Shown: positions 29,826 to 63,505 of the stretch, in pieces | How the letters are laid out: each line of letters opens with the position of its first letter | Numbering within the stretch: position 1 is the stretch's first letter | Source of the DNA: Ardenticatenaceae bacterium | Lineage (GTDB): Bacteria > Chloroflexota > Anaerolineae > Promineifilales > Promineifilaceae | Direction of reading: 5' to 3' | DNA: 64,000 nt | Assembly (NCBI GenBank): GCA_030065875.1 | Contig: JASJCR010000010.1 | Coordinates: 1-64,000, forward strand | Program-made: the position numbers and the translations under genes | The notes under the pieces: model-generated | What the model saw: only the letters and a program-made list of their open reading frames with translations | Told to the model about the DNA's origin: nothing | Databases searched by the model: none

Positions 29826-29962
29826 ACTTAGTGGTCCGTTTCCTAAATAACTAAATAGCCACAGATTATCACAGATTAACACCGATTTCTCTCTGTAATC
29901 TGTGAAAATCCGTGTTAATCTGTGGCTAAATTTGTTTAGGAACTTGAGAAATGAACCACTTA
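29826..29962 (+). repeat. Dispersed repeat family B variant, copy 3
   Basis: ACTTAGTGGTCCGTTTCC...CACAGATTATCACAGATTAACACCGATT...AATCTGTGGCTAAATTTG...GAAATGAACCACTTAG; near-palindromic overall. Confidence 0.8.
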
Positions 29963-31802: not shown

Positions 31803-31972
31803 TGCTTAAGCTCGGGGCTGCGCCCCGTTTAGCTTTTAGCTCGGCCCTGCGGGCCTCTTAGCGATTAGTATGTAGCTGCTGACAGCTGAAAGGCCGAAGG
31901 CCGCGCTGAAAGCCGCACAGCGCCGTACTAATTGCTGAGAGGGGCTTTAGCCCCGAGCTACCCCAGGAGAAC
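31803..31972 (+). repeat. GC-rich palindromic element with inverted termini
   Basis: Starts AGCTCGGGGCTGCGCCCCG and ends GGGGCTTTAGCCCCGAGCT, forming inverted ends, with internal GCGGGCC/GGCCGAAGGCCG hairpins. Confidence 0.65.
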
Positions 31973-31975
31973 CCC

Positions 31976-32269
31976 ATGAAACTCGTTGCTCTTTATGCTC
32001 ACCCCCAAGATGTCGAGGCCTTTGAGGCCAACTACGCCGCTCACCTCAAGCTGGTCGATCAAATACCCGGTCTGGTTGAAACCCGCATCACCCGCTTCTC
32101 ACGTACCCTGGCCGGTGGGGCCGGATTTTATTTGATGGCCGAAATGATTTTCCCCGATAAGGAAACGTTCAAAGCGGCCATGAACAGCGCCGAAATGGCC
32201 GCCACCGGCAAAGACGCCAATCGCTTTGCGGCCGATATTATGACGTTGATGATCGCCCAAGAAGCGTAA
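31976..32269 (+). CDS. EthD-family protein
   Basis: MKLVALYAHPQDVEAFEANYAAHLKLVDQIPGLVETRITRF is the EthD dimeric alpha/beta barrel pattern. Confidence 0.82.
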   Translation: MKLVALYAHPQDVEAFEANYAAHLKLVDQIPGLVETRITRFSRTLAGGAGFYLMAEMIFPDKETFKAAMNSAEMAATGKDANRFAADIMTLMIAQEA

Positions 32270-32346
32270 AGACCACAGACGACAGATACTTTAAATCAGG
32301 CGCCATCTGTGGTCTGAAGTCTGTGGTCTGAAGTCTCTAAAACATT

Positions 32347-33696
32347 ATGATTTGGAACGAACCGTTAGAAACAATGCCGCGGAGCGAGCTCGAAAGGCTG
32401 CAAAGCGATCGGCTGGGTGCGCTGGTTAAATATGTCTATGAACGCGTCCCCTTTTATCGGCAAAGATTTGACAAATTAGGGGTAAAATCAGATCGCATTC
32501 AATCGATCAAGGATTTACCCCAGCTCCCTTTTACAGGTAAAAACGATTTGCGGGATCACTATCCCTTTGGCCTTTTTGCTGTGCCGATGGACGAAGTAAT
32601 TCGCCTGCATGCATCCTCCGGTACGACCGGCAAACCAACCGTTGTGGGGTATACGCGCGAAGATATCGATATTTGGGCGGAAGTATGCGCCCGCTGTTTT
32701 GCCCTCAGCGGAGCAAAGCCCGGCGACATTTTTCAAAACGCTTATGGGTACGGCCTTTTTACCGGAGGGTTGGGGATGCATTACGGGGCGGAGAAGCTCG
32801 GTCTCAACACCATTCCGGTTTCCGGTGGGAATACCGCCCGGCAAATCACCCTCCTGCAAGATTTTCGCTCAGACATCATGGCCTGCACCCCCTCTTATTC
32901 GCTGACTCTCGCTGATGCCCTGCACAGCGAAGGGATCAACCCGGCCGATCTGGCGGTGCGGTCGTTTATACTGGGGGCCGAACCGTGGACCGAAGAAATG
33001 CGCGATGAAATTGAAGCGGTCCTCCATGCCGATGCGGTTAACATTTACGGATTAAGTGAGGTGATCGGTCCTGGGGTATCAAATGAATGCGTAGAAGGGA
33101 AAAACGGCATGCACCTGATGGAAGATCATTTTCTATGCGAAGTTATCGATCCGGAAACCGGTGAACACCTGCCCACGGGATCGGTCGGCGAGCTGGTTAT
33201 AACCACGCTGACCAAAAAGGCCCTGCCTCTGATTCGCTATCGCACCGGTGACATCTGCACGATCGATAAAGATCCCTGCCGCTGCGGCCGAACCACCGCC
33301 CGCATGAGTCGGGTGCTCGGCCGAGCGGATGACATGCTGATTATTCGCGGGGTCAACGTCTTCCCCACGCAGATTGAGGCGGCTATGGTGGGGCTGGCCG
33401 AAATTTCACCCCATTATCGCCTGATCGTTTCGCGCCACAACCGGCTCGACCAGCTTGAAGTCCAGCCGGAAGTAACCGAAGCGTATTATCAAGCGATTGG
33501 AGAATCACACTTCTCGCCAGAGAATCAGGCGGTGGTTGAATTGACCAATCGCATCACCCACACCCTGCGCGACGCCCTGTTGATCAATACCAAGGTCACC
33601 CTGCTGCCTCCCGGTCAGGCCCCCCGCTCACAAGGGGGTAAAATCCAGCGCCTAACTGATACAAGACAACAGACATCAGACGACAGACCACAGTAG
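32347..33696 (+). CDS. paaK: Phenylacetate-CoA ligase family protein
   Basis: PFTGKNDLRDHYPFGLFAVPMDEVIRLHASSGTTGKPTVVGYTREDI; GADDMLIIRGVNVFPTQIE equivalent; PaaK layout. Confidence 0.92.
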   Translation: MIWNEPLETMPRSELERLQSDRLGALVKYVYERVPFYRQRFDKLGVKSDRIQSIKDLPQLPFTGKNDLRDHYPFGLFAVPMDEVIRLHASSGTTGKPTVVGYTREDIDIWAEVCARCFALSGAKPGDIFQNAYGYGLFTGGLGMHYGAEKLGLNTIPVSGGNTARQITLLQDFRSDIMACTPSYSLTLADALHSEGINPADLAVRSFILGAEPWTEEMRDEIEAVLHADAVNIYGLSEVIGPGVSNECVEGKNGMHLMEDHFLCEVIDPETGEHLPTGSVGELVITTLTKKALPLIRYRTGDICTIDKDPCRCGRTTARMSRVLGRADDMLIIRGVNVFPTQIEAAMVGLAEISPHYRLIVSRHNRLDQLEVQPEVTEAYYQAIGESHFSPENQAVVELTNRITHTLRDALLINTKVTLLPPGQAPRSQGGKIQRLTDTRQQTSDDRPQ

Positions 33697-33726
33697 TCGC
33701 CTCTGAAGTCTGTCGTCTGAAGTCTG

Positions 33727-34149
33727 ATGTCTGAGTATAAGATTGTTAAAAAACTCACCCAACTCGATGCCGCGGTGATCGAGCATTTGGGTTTTGAAGA
33801 AATCGAGATTTCGGAAAATCGAGCCACCGTAACGTTAACCGTCAAGCCTCACATGGTGAACAGCCACGGTTATTGTCACGGTGGGTTGATTTATGCGCTG
33901 GCCGACCACGCTTTTGCCTACGCGGCGATGGGCAGCAATCGGAGCGGGGTAACCTTGTCGGCCCAAATTGTTTACGAGCGGCCGGCCAAATTGGGAGAAA
34001 CTCTCCTTGCCGCGGCCGAAATACAACCGACTGAGGGGCGAGTCGTCAATGGACAGGTGACGGTAACCAACACAGCCAGTGAAAGGATCGCTTCCCTTCA
34101 GGGGGTGCATTACCGCTCTGATCAACCCATCATTGAGGGAAATGCTTAA
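33727..34149 (+). CDS. paaI: PaaI-family hotdog-fold thioesterase
   Basis: VKPHMVNSHGYCHGGLIYALADHAFAYAAMG. Confidence 0.9.
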   Translation: MSEYKIVKKLTQLDAAVIEHLGFEEIEISENRATVTLTVKPHMVNSHGYCHGGLIYALADHAFAYAAMGSNRSGVTLSAQIVYERPAKLGETLLAAAEIQPTEGRVVNGQVTVTNTASERIASLQGVHYRSDQPIIEGNA

Positions 34150-34189: not shown

Positions 34190-34285
34190 CCTGTCCACAT
34201 GTGTAAGGGCTTGGCTAGCCAAGCCCCTACTAGCCAACCCCCTACACAAAAGCTTTGGTTTCATCCTGGCCACCTGTCCACAGCT
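34190..34285 (+). repeat. Dispersed repeat family C, copy 1
   Basis: TCCACATGTGTAAGGGCTTGGCTAGCCAAGCCCCTACTAGCC...CTTTGGTTTCATCCTGGCCACCTGTCC. Confidence 0.8.
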
Positions 34286-34344: not shown

Positions 34345-35325
34345 TCAGGAGGATAAGGCAGCAGCTTGAATTAGAGGGGTGAGAAAATCAGCAATCGCTT
34401 CTTTGACCGGTTCGTTATTTTGCGGCTCGCGCAAATCTCCAACGATAACATGATGAGTCGGGTGAGTGGTTTTCACCGGCAGCAGCGTTTTGTCTTGAGT
34501 CCCCCAATCGTTAAAAATACGCGTCATTTCCTCGATGTCGATGACCACATCATCTGGGGAATAAATCATCATCAGCGGCGTTTTGATACGGTCAAAATCA
34601 TACCGGCGCACGTGATCTACGATGCCCATCATCGGCAGCATCGAGACGGAGGGATAGCTCGTTGTCCAGTATTTCCCATCCAGCTCATTCATGGGCGGTC
34701 TTGAACGGGTACGCCCAAAAACGAGAGGAACAAACACGTTGGCCCACGGTGACAGAAAATATTCAGATCGCTTATCCCGCAACCCTAAATTCGGCGAAAG
34801 CATGATGCAGGCCAAAAGATCGTGTTCCCGCTCTACCAACCAGGTCGCCAAAGTGGCACCGGTGGACGTGCCTACGACCACGACCTTCTCGCCCAGCTGA
34901 CGGCCGATGGCCAATGCCTCCGTGGCGTCATTGAGCCAGTCGTTTACCGTTGCTTCCCCCATCGCCTCCCCGCTGCGGCCGTGCCCGGACAGGCGGGTGT
35001 AAAAAATATTGGCTTCTAAGTCCCGTCCAACCAAATCAAGCAGGGGGGCTGTCTCCTGGCGAGAGGCGGAAAAACCGTGCAGATAAATAAATGCCACGGC
35101 GGTTTTTTGCTTCTTTTGCGGGTCTGCCCAAATTATTTTTTTCTCGGTATTCGGCCGGATATCTTCAAAGCGGCCTTCAGATCGCTTCAAATACTTTTCT
35201 AAATCCTCCGGCAGCGGAAAAGAGTGAATCGTTTCATCCACTTCAACTCGAGGCCCTCGCCACAAAAAGATGAGTACGGCCGCTAAAACCACTAGCCAGG
35301 CCGCTGTTTTGCGCCAAAATTTCAT
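34345..35325 (-). CDS. Alpha/beta hydrolase with N-terminal membrane anchor
   Basis: AFIYLHGFSASRQETAPL, nucleophile elbow VVGTSTGATLA, late SPDDVVID and TTHPTHHVI. Confidence 0.88.
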   Translation of the reverse strand: MKFWRKTAAWLVVLAAVLIFLWRGPRVEVDETIHSFPLPEDLEKYLKRSEGRFEDIRPNTEKKIIWADPQKKQKTAVAFIYLHGFSASRQETAPLLDLVGRDLEANIFYTRLSGHGRSGEAMGEATVNDWLNDATEALAIGRQLGEKVVVVGTSTGATLATWLVEREHDLLACIMLSPNLGLRDKRSEYFLSPWANVFVPLVFGRTRSRPPMNELDGKYWTTSYPSVSMLPMMGIVDHVRRYDFDRIKTPLMMIYSPDDVVIDIEEMTRIFNDWGTQDKTLLPVKTTHPTHHVIVGDLREPQNNEPVKEAIADFLTPLIQAAALSS

Positions 35326-35459
35326 AAGAAGAATTATTTACAACCTGCGTAAATTTTCAATAATCAACGATCAATAATTAATTGTCAATTGACGATTGAC
35401 CCTTGATTATTGATAATTGACACAAAGATATCCGATTTAAAATCAAGTAAAACCCCCTC

Positions 35460-35969
35460 ATGACCGTCTCATTAACAAACTCAAAAGCTGTTTATCAGGG
35501 AATCAGGGACGCTGGCGTTCGGTCGATTTCCGCCCTTCCAGAAACATGGCTGGTTTATCTCTTACAAATGGCTGATGATGATCCGCACATGCAGCTCGTT
35601 GAAGTGGCCAAAGAAGAAGAAGCGATCGGTATTGCGGCCGGGTCATACTTTGCCGGGGACAAACACATCCTGCTGATGCAAAACCACGGTTTTCTGGCCG
35701 CGATAAACGGCATCGTTTCGCTGGCCCAGCTCTATCGCATCCCCCTCTGTATGCTCGTGGCCCACCGCGGCCACTGGGGAGAGCCATACCCGTGGCACAC
35801 CCGAGGCGGCATTGTCACCGAAGAAGTTTTGCGCGCGCTCGGGATCCCCTTTGAATACGCCCGCGATCCCCACAAAGTCGGAAAACAAATCAAAGAAGCC
35901 CTGACATTTGCCCACAGCTCGCTGGGGCCGGTTGCCCTGCTTCTCTCTCGCGATTTAATGGAGGATTAG
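35460..35969 (+). CDS. TPP-dependent 2-oxoacid decarboxylase, alpha subunit (sulfo-/phosphonopyruvate decarboxylase-like)
   Basis: PYR-domain pattern: ALPETWLVYLLQ...VEVAKEEEAIGIAAGSYFAGDKHILLMQNHGFLAAINGI. Confidence 0.83.
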   Translation: MTVSLTNSKAVYQGIRDAGVRSISALPETWLVYLLQMADDDPHMQLVEVAKEEEAIGIAAGSYFAGDKHILLMQNHGFLAAINGIVSLAQLYRIPLCMLVAHRGHWGEPYPWHTRGGIVTEEVLRALGIPFEYARDPHKVGKQIKEALTFAHSSLGPVALLLSRDLMED

Positions 35970-35971
35970 AC

Positions 35972-36553
35972 ATGCTGCGTTCAAAATGCCTGGAAGCGAT
36001 CTATTCGGAGTTAAATGACAAAATTGTGGTCACCATCATGGGTGCCTGCGCCCAGGAACTGTACGATTTAGGCCATCAGGAAAACTTCTTTTATCTGCAG
36101 CATGCGATGGGGCTGGCTTCGTCGATTGGGATGGGGATCGCCCTGCATTCTCCAGAGCAGAAAGTGGTTGTTTTAGACGGGGATGGCTCGGTGTTAATGA
36201 ATCTGGGGACCCTGGCGACAATGGCCCGCTATCGGCCGCGTAATTTGGTGCACATAATCTTTGATAATGGCAGTCTGCTGTCCACCGGTGGCTTCCCCAC
36301 CCACACAACCGATGGAACGACAGATTTGGCGGTTATCGCCCAGGGCGCGGGCATCCCCCACGTGGCCCGTGTTGGTACACCCTTCGATTTTATGGAAGCG
36401 GTTGGAGACGCGTTTGAGCGCGATGACCTCAGCGTCATTGTCGCCAAGGTAGAAGCGGTCGGCCCGGATCACTTCGGCATGGATTTTCAGCTCCCGGAAA
36501 ACGCGTTTATGTTTAAACGGGCGATTCGAGAGATGAAGTTGGGGGATGGGTGA
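35972..36553 (+). CDS. TPP-dependent 2-oxoacid decarboxylase, beta subunit (ComE-like)
   Basis: TPP-binding motif GDGSVLMNLGTLATMARYRPRNLVHIIFDN; 2 nt downstream of the alpha subunit. Confidence 0.85.
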   Translation: MLRSKCLEAIYSELNDKIVVTIMGACAQELYDLGHQENFFYLQHAMGLASSIGMGIALHSPEQKVVVLDGDGSVLMNLGTLATMARYRPRNLVHIIFDNGSLLSTGGFPTHTTDGTTDLAVIAQGAGIPHVARVGTPFDFMEAVGDAFERDDLSVIVAKVEAVGPDHFGMDFQLPENAFMFKRAIREMKLGDG

Positions 36554-36635
36554 TGGGTGTTGGGTAATAGGTATTGGGTGGTAGGTGTTGGAAATATTCG
36601 TTAATCATCAATCGTAAATCAACAAGGATGTTCCC

Positions 36636-37473: not shown

Positions 37474-37602
37474 CGGGTTCAAGGGCGATTTAACCAATCC
37501 ACATGTGTAGGGGCTTGGCTAGCCAAGCCCTTACACAAAGTCTTTGGTTTCATCCTGGCCACCTCTACCGCTGAACCCGACGCGGTTCAAGGGCGGACAG
37601 GT
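37474..37602 (+). repeat. Dispersed repeat family C, copy 2
   Basis: CGTCGGGTTCAAGGGCGATTTAACCAATCCACATGTGTAGGGGCTTGGCTAGCCAAGCCCTTACACAAAGTCTTTGGTTTCATCCTGGCCACCT. Confidence 0.8.
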
Positions 37603-39087: not shown

Positions 39088-39224
39088 AGGCGAGCAATTA
39101 TGGGGGAAAAGAAAGTGAAGGGCAAATTGCTTAAGAATGTTATGAACTACGACGTACGATTTACGAGATACGATTCAAGCTATCGTATTTCGTATCTCGT
39201 AGATCGAATCTCTTAAAATAAAAA

Positions 39225-39358
39225 CGCCCAGCGGATTGGTGATAACCAGGGTGTCCAAGTCACCCGAGGGGGTCGCCTTAGTGCTGCTTCCTTCCGGACC
39301 TGACACGGTTCAGCGGCCCTCGCCGCCTGGGCCCCGATTATCACCAAACCGCTGGGCG
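39225..39358 (-). ncRNA. ffs: Small bacterial signal recognition particle RNA (4.5S-like)
   Basis: Minus strand contains the SRP domain IV signature GTCAGGTCCGGAAGGAAGCAGC within GGGGCCCAGGCGGCGAGGGCCGC...GCGACCCCCTCGGGTGACTTGGACACCCTGG; closing 20-bp helix, then TTTTATTTT. Confidence 0.95.
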
Positions 39359-41007: not shown

Positions 41008-41371
41008 AACAAGAACTATAATCGGTGTATGCAGAAAAGCAACGATTTCTAATGAGGGGTAGGTAATTGACAATTTGTCGGTGGCAATTAGGTTACTGAC
41101 CGACAAGCTCCCCTCCCTGCGTCGGGGAGGGGCTGGGGGAGGGGTGAGATGACGGCAAAAGACCCACCCCCTAACCCCCTCCCGACACGGAAGGGGGGAT
41201 TTGTAGAGCTTAAATGAGGATTTTCCATTCATTGAACGACCTGTCCGCTCTTGAACCTGTAACGGGGAGAGGCGCGTGTTGGGCTGTTTTAGAGCTCTAC
41301 CGATTCGATGAAAAATACACGATTTTATTTAACAGAGCACTAGTTACTGGATTTTTTGATAAAATTAAAAT

Positions 41372-42514: not shown

Positions 42515-42665
42515 GATTTACAAATAAATGCGGATATGAACCATCTTCAAAAACAAGCCCGTCATCCCCGCGTAGGCGGGGATCCACCGGTAGCAAGCCA
42601 ATGGATTCCCGCTTTCGCGGGAATGACGCTGCTGTATCGGTATTGGCTTATCAAAACTCAAAAAT
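42515..42665 (-). repeat. Dispersed repeat family A, copy 3 (inverted)
   Basis: GAAGATTTACAAATAAATGCGGATATGAACCATCTTCAAAAACAAGCCCGTCATCCCCGC...GGATTCCCGCTTTCGCGGGAATGACGCTGCTGTATCGG is the reverse complement of copies 1 and 2. Confidence 0.85.
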
Positions 42666-44793: not shown

Positions 44794-46497
44794 ATGATTA
44801 TGTTTAAGCGTGGGTCGTTTCTTGCCGGGTTGGCGCTCTTAATCAGCGTCTTTCTACTCAATCAGGGCAGCACCGTACAGTCACAAGCACTTCCATCTAA
44901 TTTTTATCTGCCCATCGGGGCACAAAATCCGGCCAATGAAGGGGCGATCGCTTACGGCGTCAATTTTATGAATTCGGTTGACCATCCGGCCGATGCTCAG
45001 ATGTTTGCCAACGGCAAGTTAACCGGAGCCGTGTGGAATCGCTGGCCCCTCTACTGGAGTCGCATCGAAACAGGGAACGGGGTTTTTGATTGGTCCGCTC
45101 ACGATCCAATTGTGCAAGCTGACATCACCAACGGGTTTCGCACAAATGCGATTTTGCTGGGCACGCCCTCTTTTTATACCACAGCGGATGTGCGGCCGGA
45201 TGAACTCGAAACACTGACGCTGGAACCTGGAGATTCAATCTCCCTCAACACGGTACAACGAGCCACACCGGTCGGCTTATACGAACCGGTTTTCACCGAC
45301 GGAAATGACGCCCCAGGCGCAGGAAAAACCATCAATCCCGCCAACCGCTGGGCCCGCTTCGTCTATCAAATCGTCAATCGCTACAAACCAGGGGGAACGC
45401 TGGCCCGCCAAAACAACTGGCCAGGAAATGCAGGCATTACCCATTGGGAAATGTGGAACGAACCGGATTTTGCGCTTTTCTGGGATGCCAGCCAGGCGGA
45501 TTATGCTCGCCTGCTCAAAGTGGGTTACCTGGCCGCCAAACACGCCGACAGCAGCGCCGTGGTTTTATTTGGCGGATTGGCCAATAACGGTGACCTCAAT
45601 TTTTACGAAAACATTCTGACTATCTTTGATCGGGATCCTCTGGGTCCGACCAACAGCTACTTCCACGATATTTACGTAACCCACAGCTACTCCCGCGCCT
45701 CTCGTTCCTGGCTGCACGTGTTCCGGGCGGAACGAGACCTGCGAGATTTTAACATTCAAAAACCGATTTGGCTCAACGAAACCGGTGTACCGGTCTGGGA
45801 TGATTATCCAGGCCCGGTGTGGGATGCCGGCAGCTGGTTGCGCGGGTCTGCCCCTGAAAAAGCGGATTATGTCCTGCAATCCGCCTTTTATTCAATTTAT
45901 GCAGGGGCAGATGGGTATTTTTACTTTCAACTTTATGACGGGTGCGGCAATCAGCCGGCGTTTACCGATTTCCCACCGCACAATGGGGAATTGTGCGATG
46001 CCAATGGCTACCTAACCAATGATCCCTCAAAACCGTGCTCCGGCGATGCCCACGGCCTGTTTCGCAACGCCTCTGACATGATCTGCTTCTCCCAACACCC
46101 CAATCCGGAAAGCCCGCGCTCTGGGCTGGCCGCCTTTCAAATATTGACCGGTTATGCACAGAGTGTACAACCGCTCACCCGCTCTCGACCAAACGGCACG
46201 GCCGAAATTATTCAGCTCTATCAGCCCACAACCAATCGTCGGCTGGTGGCAGCCTGGGCATTAACCAACCAGCCCGAAACGGTAGTTATACCGGCTAAAA
46301 GCAGCAGTGCCCTACTCCTATGGTCCGATGGGACCCAGCAGCAAGTCACCCCGGTTAATGGCGAATACGTATTGTCTCTGCCCGGAGCAACCAATACAAA
46401 CGGCCATAATTTTTACAGCCCCAATGCGCCATTTTTTGATCCATCCCCCTTTATGATTGGCGGGAAAACGGTGGTTTTGATCGAAGACAACGGATGA
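44794..46497 (+). CDS. Secreted glycoside-hydrolase-like (TIM-barrel, GH39-like) protein
   Basis: Signal peptide; HWEMWNEPDFALFWDASQADYARLLKVGYLAAKHADSSAVVLFGG; second acid candidate IWLNETGVPVWDD. Confidence 0.8.
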   Translation: MIMFKRGSFLAGLALLISVFLLNQGSTVQSQALPSNFYLPIGAQNPANEGAIAYGVNFMNSVDHPADAQMFANGKLTGAVWNRWPLYWSRIETGNGVFDWSAHDPIVQADITNGFRTNAILLGTPSFYTTADVRPDELETLTLEPGDSISLNTVQRATPVGLYEPVFTDGNDAPGAGKTINPANRWARFVYQIVNRYKPGGTLARQNNWPGNAGITHWEMWNEPDFALFWDASQADYARLLKVGYLAAKHADSSAVVLFGGLANNGDLNFYENILTIFDRDPLGPTNSYFHDIYVTHSYSRASRSWLHVFRAERDLRDFNIQKPIWLNETGVPVWDDYPGPVWDAGSWLRGSAPEKADYVLQSAFYSIYAGADGYFYFQLYDGCGNQPAFTDFPPHNGELCDANGYLTNDPSKPCSGDAHGLFRNASDMICFSQHPNPESPRSGLAAFQILTGYAQSVQPLTRSRPNGTAEIIQLYQPTTNRRLVAAWALTNQPETVVIPAKSSSALLLWSDGTQQQVTPVNGEYVLSLPGATNTNGHNFYSPNAPFFDPSPFMIGGKTVVLIEDNG

Positions 46498-46557
46498 ATA
46501 ATAATCAATAGTCAATGGTCAATTTTCACGTCAACCCAATTGATCATTGTCTATTGA

Positions 46558-47115
46558 TTATTGACGATTGATAATTTTTTCCCGCTGGTTGATTTCCAAT
46601 GCGATTTTAGCCACGTGACGGGCATCATCAATCGCCCGGTGGTGTCGTCCGGCAAACTCAACTTCGAGGATCCGAAGGGCTTTCATCATCCCAACCGGCC
46701 GGTCTAAATTATATTGGGCGGCAAACACACCTTTTAAATTGACGTGATTGGCTTCAGATAGAAATTCCCCCCAGGGCAGGTTAAGCCGCTTTAAATCCAG
46801 GGTAAGCTGCTCCCGGTCAAAGTTGCCCCAGGAATACCAAATTAATGGGGAATTCCCTGCCCACCCGAGAAAGTCGGCAAAAACCTCTGCAAACGGTGCC
46901 GCCTGATCGACATCTTTTTGCTCGATAGACGTTAACCGGGTGCAGAAAGGGCTCAATTTGGGTTTGAGGACCGGCCGAACAAAACGATCATACTCCTCGA
47001 TGACCGTCAAAGAATCATCGGTTTTGACCGCTCCAATTTCGATGGTCTCCATATTTTCACGGACGTGATTTTTTTTCCAGCAGGTGCATTCAAGGTCGAG
47101 GAATATATGGTACAT
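46558..47115 (-). CDS. DEDDh 3'-5' exonuclease (KapD/ERI-1-like)
   Basis: MYHIFLDLECTCW...ETIEIGAVK...HHRAIDDARHVAKIA. Confidence 0.9.
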   Translation of the reverse strand: MYHIFLDLECTCWKKNHVRENMETIEIGAVKTDDSLTVIEEYDRFVRPVLKPKLSPFCTRLTSIEQKDVDQAAPFAEVFADFLGWAGNSPLIWYSWGNFDREQLTLDLKRLNLPWGEFLSEANHVNLKGVFAAQYNLDRPVGMMKALRILEVEFAGRHHRAIDDARHVAKIALEINQREKIINRQ

Positions 47116-63421: not shown

Positions 63422-63505
63422 ACGTCTTTTGTAAGGGCTTGGCTAGCCAAGCCCTTACTAGCCAAGCCCCTACAAATGTGGATGGGTTAAATCGCCCTCG
63501 GAACA
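63422..63505 (-). repeat. Dispersed repeat family C, copy 3 (inverted)
   Basis: GTAAGGGCTTGGCTAGCCAAGCCCTTACTAGCCAAGCCCCTACAAATGTGGATGGGTTAAATCGCC, reverse complement of 37480-37530. Confidence 0.8.

Follow-up and report, generated by a model that had tools for sequence, protein, structure and literature searches.

Two-sided heptanucleotide repeat loci of fixed strand polarity between the genes of an Ardenticatenaceae bacterium

Heptamer repeats have been known for decades in scattered bacteria, and the origin usually suggested for them is polymerase slippage. To our knowledge, there is no accepted explanation of how they arise. Among the systems closest to the loci described here are the G-rich GGGNATC and GGGGA(C/T)T repeats of Xanthomonas and Nostoc (Rehm et al. 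2015, PMC4692102, which in turn cites the cyanobacterial STRR heptamers). Like our arrays, these repeats are 7-nt, intergenic, found beside genes of unrelated function, variable in length and sequence, and sometimes inverted. Their placement relative to ORF edges is also the same, although the available part of that paper does not draw the conclusion of a fixed strand. As far as that text goes, it reports one word per genome, so that a multi-word dictionary and fixed-polarity two-sided arrays are features seen here, as are the mixed-word pairs, unmirrored arms, and promoter-headed perfect arrays, which the same portion of the paper does not describe.

The TAACTGA direct repeats of Beggiatoaceae, Cyanobacteria, and Bacteroidetes (MacGregor 2015, PMC4679880) are likewise intergenic heptamers with a patchy distribution over distant phyla and indels in 7-nt steps. 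However, they consist of a fixed 7-mer, lie mostly upstream of starts, include one indirect repeat in 169 sets in the genome studied, and lack the two-sided structure of our loci. The Class I and Class II heptamers of the trnL (UAA) intron P6b region in Nostoc (PMC4476775) resemble our arrays in forming a hairpin of degenerate heptamers, in which whole words have been replaced repeatedly at one site while the hairpin was kept, but this is a single, structurally constrained site within a group I intron. REP and REPIN palindromes (PMC3116915, PMC3733652) are also intergenic, high-copy, and dispersed; in the accessible parts of those papers they are fixed sequence families, whereas the loci here are free outside 5-nt cores, have a period of 7, and are non-palindromic in one third of cases. 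For this bacterial group, we found no heptamer literature in open-access full text, which is weak evidence of absence. The arrays reported here are heptanucleotide repeats of the class found in cyanobacteria, Xanthomonas, and Beggiatoaceae, organized as two-sided intergenic loci, and are best read as a variant of bacterial heptanucleotide repeats that is new in its two-sided, fixed-polarity, multi-word form.

Heptamer loci in the window and the genome

The window is the whole 64-kb stretch of DNA that was analyzed (64,000 nt). It contains six such loci and one similar-looking hairpin; z values compare RNA folding with shuffles.

32270-32336: two-sided CAGACNN locus (sequence, repeats, TRF; lag-7 match 0.52; z -3.9), left arm 32270-32286, right arm 32306-32336; placed immediately after the stop codon that closes ORF 31976-32269 (EthD), with 10 nt left before ORF 32347 (AMP-binding ligase)
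33664-33734: two-sided CAGACNN locus, symbolic map CCC|cccc (fold -42.3 kcal/mol; z -7.5); left arm translated as the C-terminus of ORF 32347-33696, right arm containing the start codon of ORF 33727-34149 (4HBT thioesterase)
35346-35424: two-sided TCAATNN locus (z -5.4) in the gap between divergent ORFs 34345-35325 (- strand) and 35460-35969 (+ strand)
36540-36625: two-sided mixed-word locus (TRF), map WWWW..R|..t; a TGGGTNN array as the left side (36540-36591, sharing sequence with the 3' end of ORF 35972-36553) and TCGTAAA-like units as the right side (36598-36625, preceding ATG 36636)
39148-39215: two-sided TACGANN locus (z -4.9) adjoining the small SRP RNA gene (39241-39339, - strand)
46500-46576: two-sided TCAATNN locus (z -5.9) between convergent ORFs 44794-46497 (+ strand) and 46558-47115 (- strand, RNase_T), followed by a T-run; also recovered by the genome-wide polarity search
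29856-29928: AATCTGTG hairpin, TRF period 10 (lag-10 match 0.51, lag-7 match 0.22), not a member

The six loci belong together because all are built on a 7-base period. Their lag-7 self-match is 0.52-0.61, against a maximum of 0.38 at lags 4-6 and 8-12, and the window as a whole holds four lag-7 clusters vs. 0.0 in shuffles, with other lags almost empty. The original prediction had described intergenic inverted arms, each made of one reiterated word, and both the sequence and the folding z confirm them at the five same-word loci. At 36540-36591, the predicted GGTGTTGGG array exists, but an inverted arm of its own word is absent, and the locus still obeys the polarity rule set out below. The AATCTG "family B" that had been counted with them has a period of 10 rather than 7 and represents a different class. 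Word hairpins with a period of ~10 were seen at 29856-29928 and also at L143 13490-13600 (CACAGATTAA / CACGGATT).

Arrays can rewrite gene ends, as illustrated by the array at 33660-33737. A terminator scan flagged none of the window arrays; nonetheless, 46500-46576 precedes T's between convergent genes. At Rfam curated thresholds, only the small SRP RNA passed between 29500 and 47500, and no array there matched a known family.

Other structures in the window were noted in passing. An imperfect hairpin at 41096-41211 gave weak sub-threshold matches to microRNA families, presumably due to shape alone. A dispersed palindrome around GGGGCTTGGCTAGCCAAGCCCCTA, with the 15-bp repeat CTAGCCAAGCCCCTA, occurs at 34205-34250, 37500-37545, and 63428-63476, and the gap at 31803-31975 is full of short G+C-rich hairpins (CTCGGGGCTGCGCCCCG, GGGGCTTTAGCCCC) that are not of period 7. 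About 75 bp at 42553-42627 match ~40 places in the sister species G400 at 80-86% identity and are a dispersed element there.

To place these loci in context, we cataloged arrays in a 1.26-Mb sample (17%) of the 7.42-Mb draft genome. This yielded 246 lag-7 arrays vs. 2 in third-order shuffles, while lags 8-13 gave 4-31. The arrays merge into 194 loci, or about one per 6.5 kb, and ~71% of array bases fall outside crude ORFs, which cover ~90% of the DNA. The words, initially listed as 5-9 bases long, are in fact heptamers of five fixed and one or two free bases, repeated with a strict period of 7. The position that follows the core varies almost freely in CAGAC, TACGA, TCAAT, and GAGAC arrays, and the one after it is more constrained; in TGGGT arrays the freest position is the last base.

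The words form a dictionary of ~10 (CAGACNN, GAGACNN, TACGANN, TGGGTNN, TCAATNN, ACTTTNN/AAAGT, GCTAATN, AAGGTNN, and GTCCTNA among them) and are found again at hundreds of loci; by core, the sample holds 35 CAGAC, 20 TACGA, 19 ACCCA, and 17 TCAAT arrays. The idea that each gap has a word of its own therefore holds at most within the window, since a small set of words is used over and over. The pattern TCAATNNTCAATNNTCAAT had 122 matches genome-wide and 0 in the reversed control. Clustering of words along the chromosome was not clear (0.31 vs. 0.24, p=0.07). Exact 7-nt units far above chance, mainly intergenic, at many unrelated loci, and with length and sequence variation among related genomes are what define bacterial heptanucleotide tandem repeats, and the arrays have all of these.

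Strand polarity and unmirrored arms

For each word, same-word pairs set the orientation that we call W, with R as its complement. Because a hairpin reads alike on both strands, which word comes first is independent of the strand chosen. In the sample, W stood on the left and its complement on the right (first-word counts: CAGAC 27:0, TACGA 5:0, AAAGT 4:0, TGGGT 3:0, TCAAT 6:1). Because CAGAC reads the same letter by letter in both directions, reversing the genome-wide search pattern as a control amounts to searching for the opposite polarity; pairs of this word were W-first in 109 matches vs. 0, with overlapping matches counted, and the strict pattern gave 11 distinct loci vs. 0 in the 1.26-Mb sample. 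Genome-wide, TCAAT matches were 29:1 TCAAT-first. The GCTAA/TTAGC word did not follow the rule cleanly.

Neighboring arrays of the same word ran W-then-R by 39:1. Those of different words did so in 20 cases vs. 3, and of these exceptions, one spans two neighboring loci and the other two are continuous, morphing arrays. Thus 20 of 59 two-sided loci, a third, carry different words on their two sides and yet keep the polarity (symbolic maps of two-sided loci include GGGGGCCC|wwwwwwwwww and WWWWWWWWRR|ggcccccccc). Since different-word pairs are unable to form hairpins, polarity is not a by-product of pairing.

Arrays without a partner arm also obeyed an edge rule, lying at the left vs. right gap edge in 28:8 cases for W and 4:26 for R (p=1.3e-7), and tandem, convergent, and divergent gaps all showed the same trend. 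Across all arrays, the median distance to a coding edge was 9 nt on the W 5' side vs. 83 nt on the 3' side, distances that are approximate because gene calls were crude ORFs. On both sides, then, the W strand has its 3' end facing the gap center. A simpler rule, purine-rich strand first, proved a trend only (64:12 in this genome, 22:0 in G372, 9:0 in G404, 30:11 in other phyla, and 229:166 in ordinary hairpins), is broken by TTRGCTN-first in G401/G402 (6:0), and predicts position much less well than dictionary orientation does.

The free bases allowed us to ask if the two arms are copies. Between facing same-word arms of 45 hairpins they were not mirrored (1.16 observed vs. 1.18 order-shuffled; 1.20 vs. 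1.34 for arms swapped between loci), and a cruder earlier test gave the same result. In L049, (CAGACTA)10 faces (CAGACAT)5, each arm homogeneous in different free bases. One G372 hairpin (L143 15294-15366) is a nearly perfect palindrome; most others in that genome are not. Same-word arrays at different loci shared runs of free bases no more than random draws would. With free bases neither mirrored between arms nor shared between loci, the arms are not copies of each other. Still, the two sides agree in word more often than expected if they arose independently (0.67 vs. 0.27). A test of unit decay for growth direction gave no clear signal, and center-side units gave no sign of a younger age.

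Other genomes and a promoter-centered sub-family

In a phylum sample of 400 genomes, the CAGAC hairpin was essentially private to this species, with few matches in two others; in G372 these were GTCTG-first 4 times vs. 2 in the opposite polarity. Relatives use other words: AAGTATG in G400, GCGTGAT in G404, AATTACG, CAGTGGT, and GGGTGGC in G372, and TTRGCTN in G401-G403. By contrast, four successive TCAATNN units are present in many phyla among the matches listed. Polarity was scored in 47 genomes from among those matches plus our own, and 23 genomes, spread over many phyla, were each one-sided. Among the matches listed, Fischerella (11:0) and Symploca (4:0) are TCAAT-first like our genome, while nearly all others are ATTGA-first (e.g., 121, 16, 15, 11, and 10 vs. 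0; match counts), and no genome holds both polarities in numbers, with few matches in most. TCAAT-type hairpins in Fischerella (G451, L178) have conserved loops (GTCCAGAGTTTTTACAAATGAC), as do those in a Desulfobacteraceae genome (G470, L212; AAATAAGAAGTGTTC; 121 matches), and both are element-like families.

Orthologous slots differ in content. The slot of 32270-32336 holds AGCTNNT words in G401-G403 and none in G405; that of 33664-33734 holds a TTGGCTN hairpin in G401/G402, an ordinary hairpin in G403, and neither in G405. Beside the SRP RNA, G404 has a GGAGATT hairpin, and G402 and G403 have none. Slots in a 20-kb stretch were also compared in eight species of the G372 genus (72-89% identical over most of it), where those between nuoC, D, E, H, I, J, and L contain different words, single-sided arrays, or no array. 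Arrays lying between consecutive genes of the nuo operon, as they do in G372, are unlikely to be terminators. Word choice appears to drift in each species, with slots being re-filled by other words in sister species. Comparing filled and empty slots by eye at ~70-85% identity showed no clean target-site structure.

Some arrays are headed by promoters. In the sample, 11 loci have at least five perfect heptamers, and a sigma70-like promoter stands 1-8 nt before the array in 7 of them by an automatic test (one weak), where ~0.2 would be expected at the random rate; two further cases were found by eye (L046, L090:2389). Most of these arrays have TTGACATAAA-N13-TADMCT in common, which occurs 20 times in this genome and 0 times in 34 other genomes of the family. 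No promoter heads any of the six perfect arrays of G372 or the 19 in loci of other phyla.

A family of ~25 loci (L315-L337, L340, L034:6948, L080:8264, L085:15503) is arranged as a W array, a near-identical sigma70-like promoter, and a long perfect R array, and the words that follow the same promoter core include ACCCAAC, TCGTAAA, TTAGGAC, TCTCGTC, GTCTGAA, and GTCTGTA. Given its central position, the promoter could not but read the R strand, so this direction is no independent evidence. Downstream genes, where visible, are oriented away from the promoter, which would make leaders of the arrays. At L330 (G000:C140:80676), what comes after the same core is not heptamers but a perfect 9-mer array, (AATCGAACC)n. 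The sub-family is an element dispersed through the genome whose center is conserved, and it makes the best case for whole-element copying.

How the arrays may arise

That a common architecture with different words reflects a shared generator, as originally proposed, is supported by the lack of extra shared free-base runs and by the different words in orthologous slots. Polarity that is one-sided within genomes and opposite between them is predicted by neither slippage, foldback, nor selection on hairpins, and points to a strand-specific generator acting in trans. Our tentative first choice, at a probability of about 0.38, is that the arrays are made by strand-specific 3'-end extension using words supplied in trans. 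Where the DNA between two genes is broken or gapped, each of the two 3' ends would grow in 7-nt steps, with the ~5-nt core as an anchor and the remaining bases poorly templated; the word templates would come in trans, the lengthened ends would then be joined, and a hairpin would be the by-product where both ends had received the same word.

Extension of this kind would directly explain the dictionary, the unmirrored free bases, the polarity, and the edge rule, and it would also account for the two sides agreeing in word, provided that a single template is used at both ends. However, the excess of word sharing between sides counts against it, as do the lack of any sign of younger center-side units and of clean target-site structure. 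The conserved loops in Fischerella and the Desulfobacteraceae genome, like the promoter-centered sub-family, also look more like whole-element copying. A link to a reverse transcriptase found no footing: the only RVT_1 gene in this genome is a group II intron maturase, and a search of G400 found none, though G400 has heptamer hairpins. This weakens an RNA-templated version and is why we place trans extension first with low confidence.

It is also possible, if on the whole unlikely, that the arrays are mobile palindromic families of REP or MITE type, in which each word goes back to one founder hairpin that spread by copying and passed on its polarity. Later slippage and point mutation would then have scrambled the free bases, and recombination between neighbors would have made the mixed-word loci. 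Such copying fits the one-sided polarity per word and genome and the above-chance use of one word on both sides, and it gains from the conserved loops abroad and from the conserved center and arms of the promoter-centered family. Yet copies sharing both arms and loop were found in that sub-family only: elsewhere, loops are mostly dissimilar, though some k-mers are common, and arrays have no long common runs of free bases. The core bases persist amid random free bases, lone arrays obey the edge rule, and no target-site duplication was recognized in the slots compared by eye. The original prediction that this is not one mobile family thus stands in that the word is fixed and the sequence free, but fails for the promoter-centered sub-family, whose sequence is fixed; beyond that sub-family, free-base runs and loops rule out one mobile family of fixed sequence.

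We consider it distinctly improbable that selection maintains the arrays as RNA or DNA hairpins, for example as mRNA stabilizers or operon leaders, and that ordinary slippage lengthened their arms. Such selection would lead one to see the strong folding of the window loci, the hairpins of different words held by nuo slots in several species, and the perfect arrays between promoter and gene. However, the third of two-sided loci whose words cannot pair keep the polarity, selection for pairing explains neither a genome-wide dictionary nor the polarity, and in some species the corresponding slot lacks a hairpin.

Very little speaks for the arrays being ordinary heptanucleotide microsatellites that owe their spread to nothing but replication slippage, locus by locus. 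Long perfect arrays do exist, and heptamers are over-represented among bacterial simple repeats according to the available part of one study (PMC4692102), but slippage yields neither words common to many loci nor polarity, neighboring units are no more alike than distant ones, and the polarity across 23 genomes among the matches listed is hard to reconcile with it. In the process originally suggested, a word already in the gap would give rise to the hairpin locally, through template switching or hairpin-primed slippage. This would account for the frequent same-word sides and for a few nearly perfect palindromes such as L143 15294-15366, but it is most improbable, because the arms do not mirror each other in their free bases, only one polarity occurs where both are expected, the same words stand at hundreds of unlinked loci, and a third of two-sided loci cannot pair.

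Within the trans-extension reading, there is at best a slim chance that the promoter-headed arrays are master loci, where for several words the sigma70-like promoter would transcribe R, and this RNA, or strand-specific DNA copied from it, would serve in trans as template for a polymerase adding W to DNA 3' ends beside genes. If true, this would be a bacterial analogue of telomere-repeat addition taking place inside the chromosome. More generally, the regularity of polarity bears on how bacteria make and replace their intergenic DNA.
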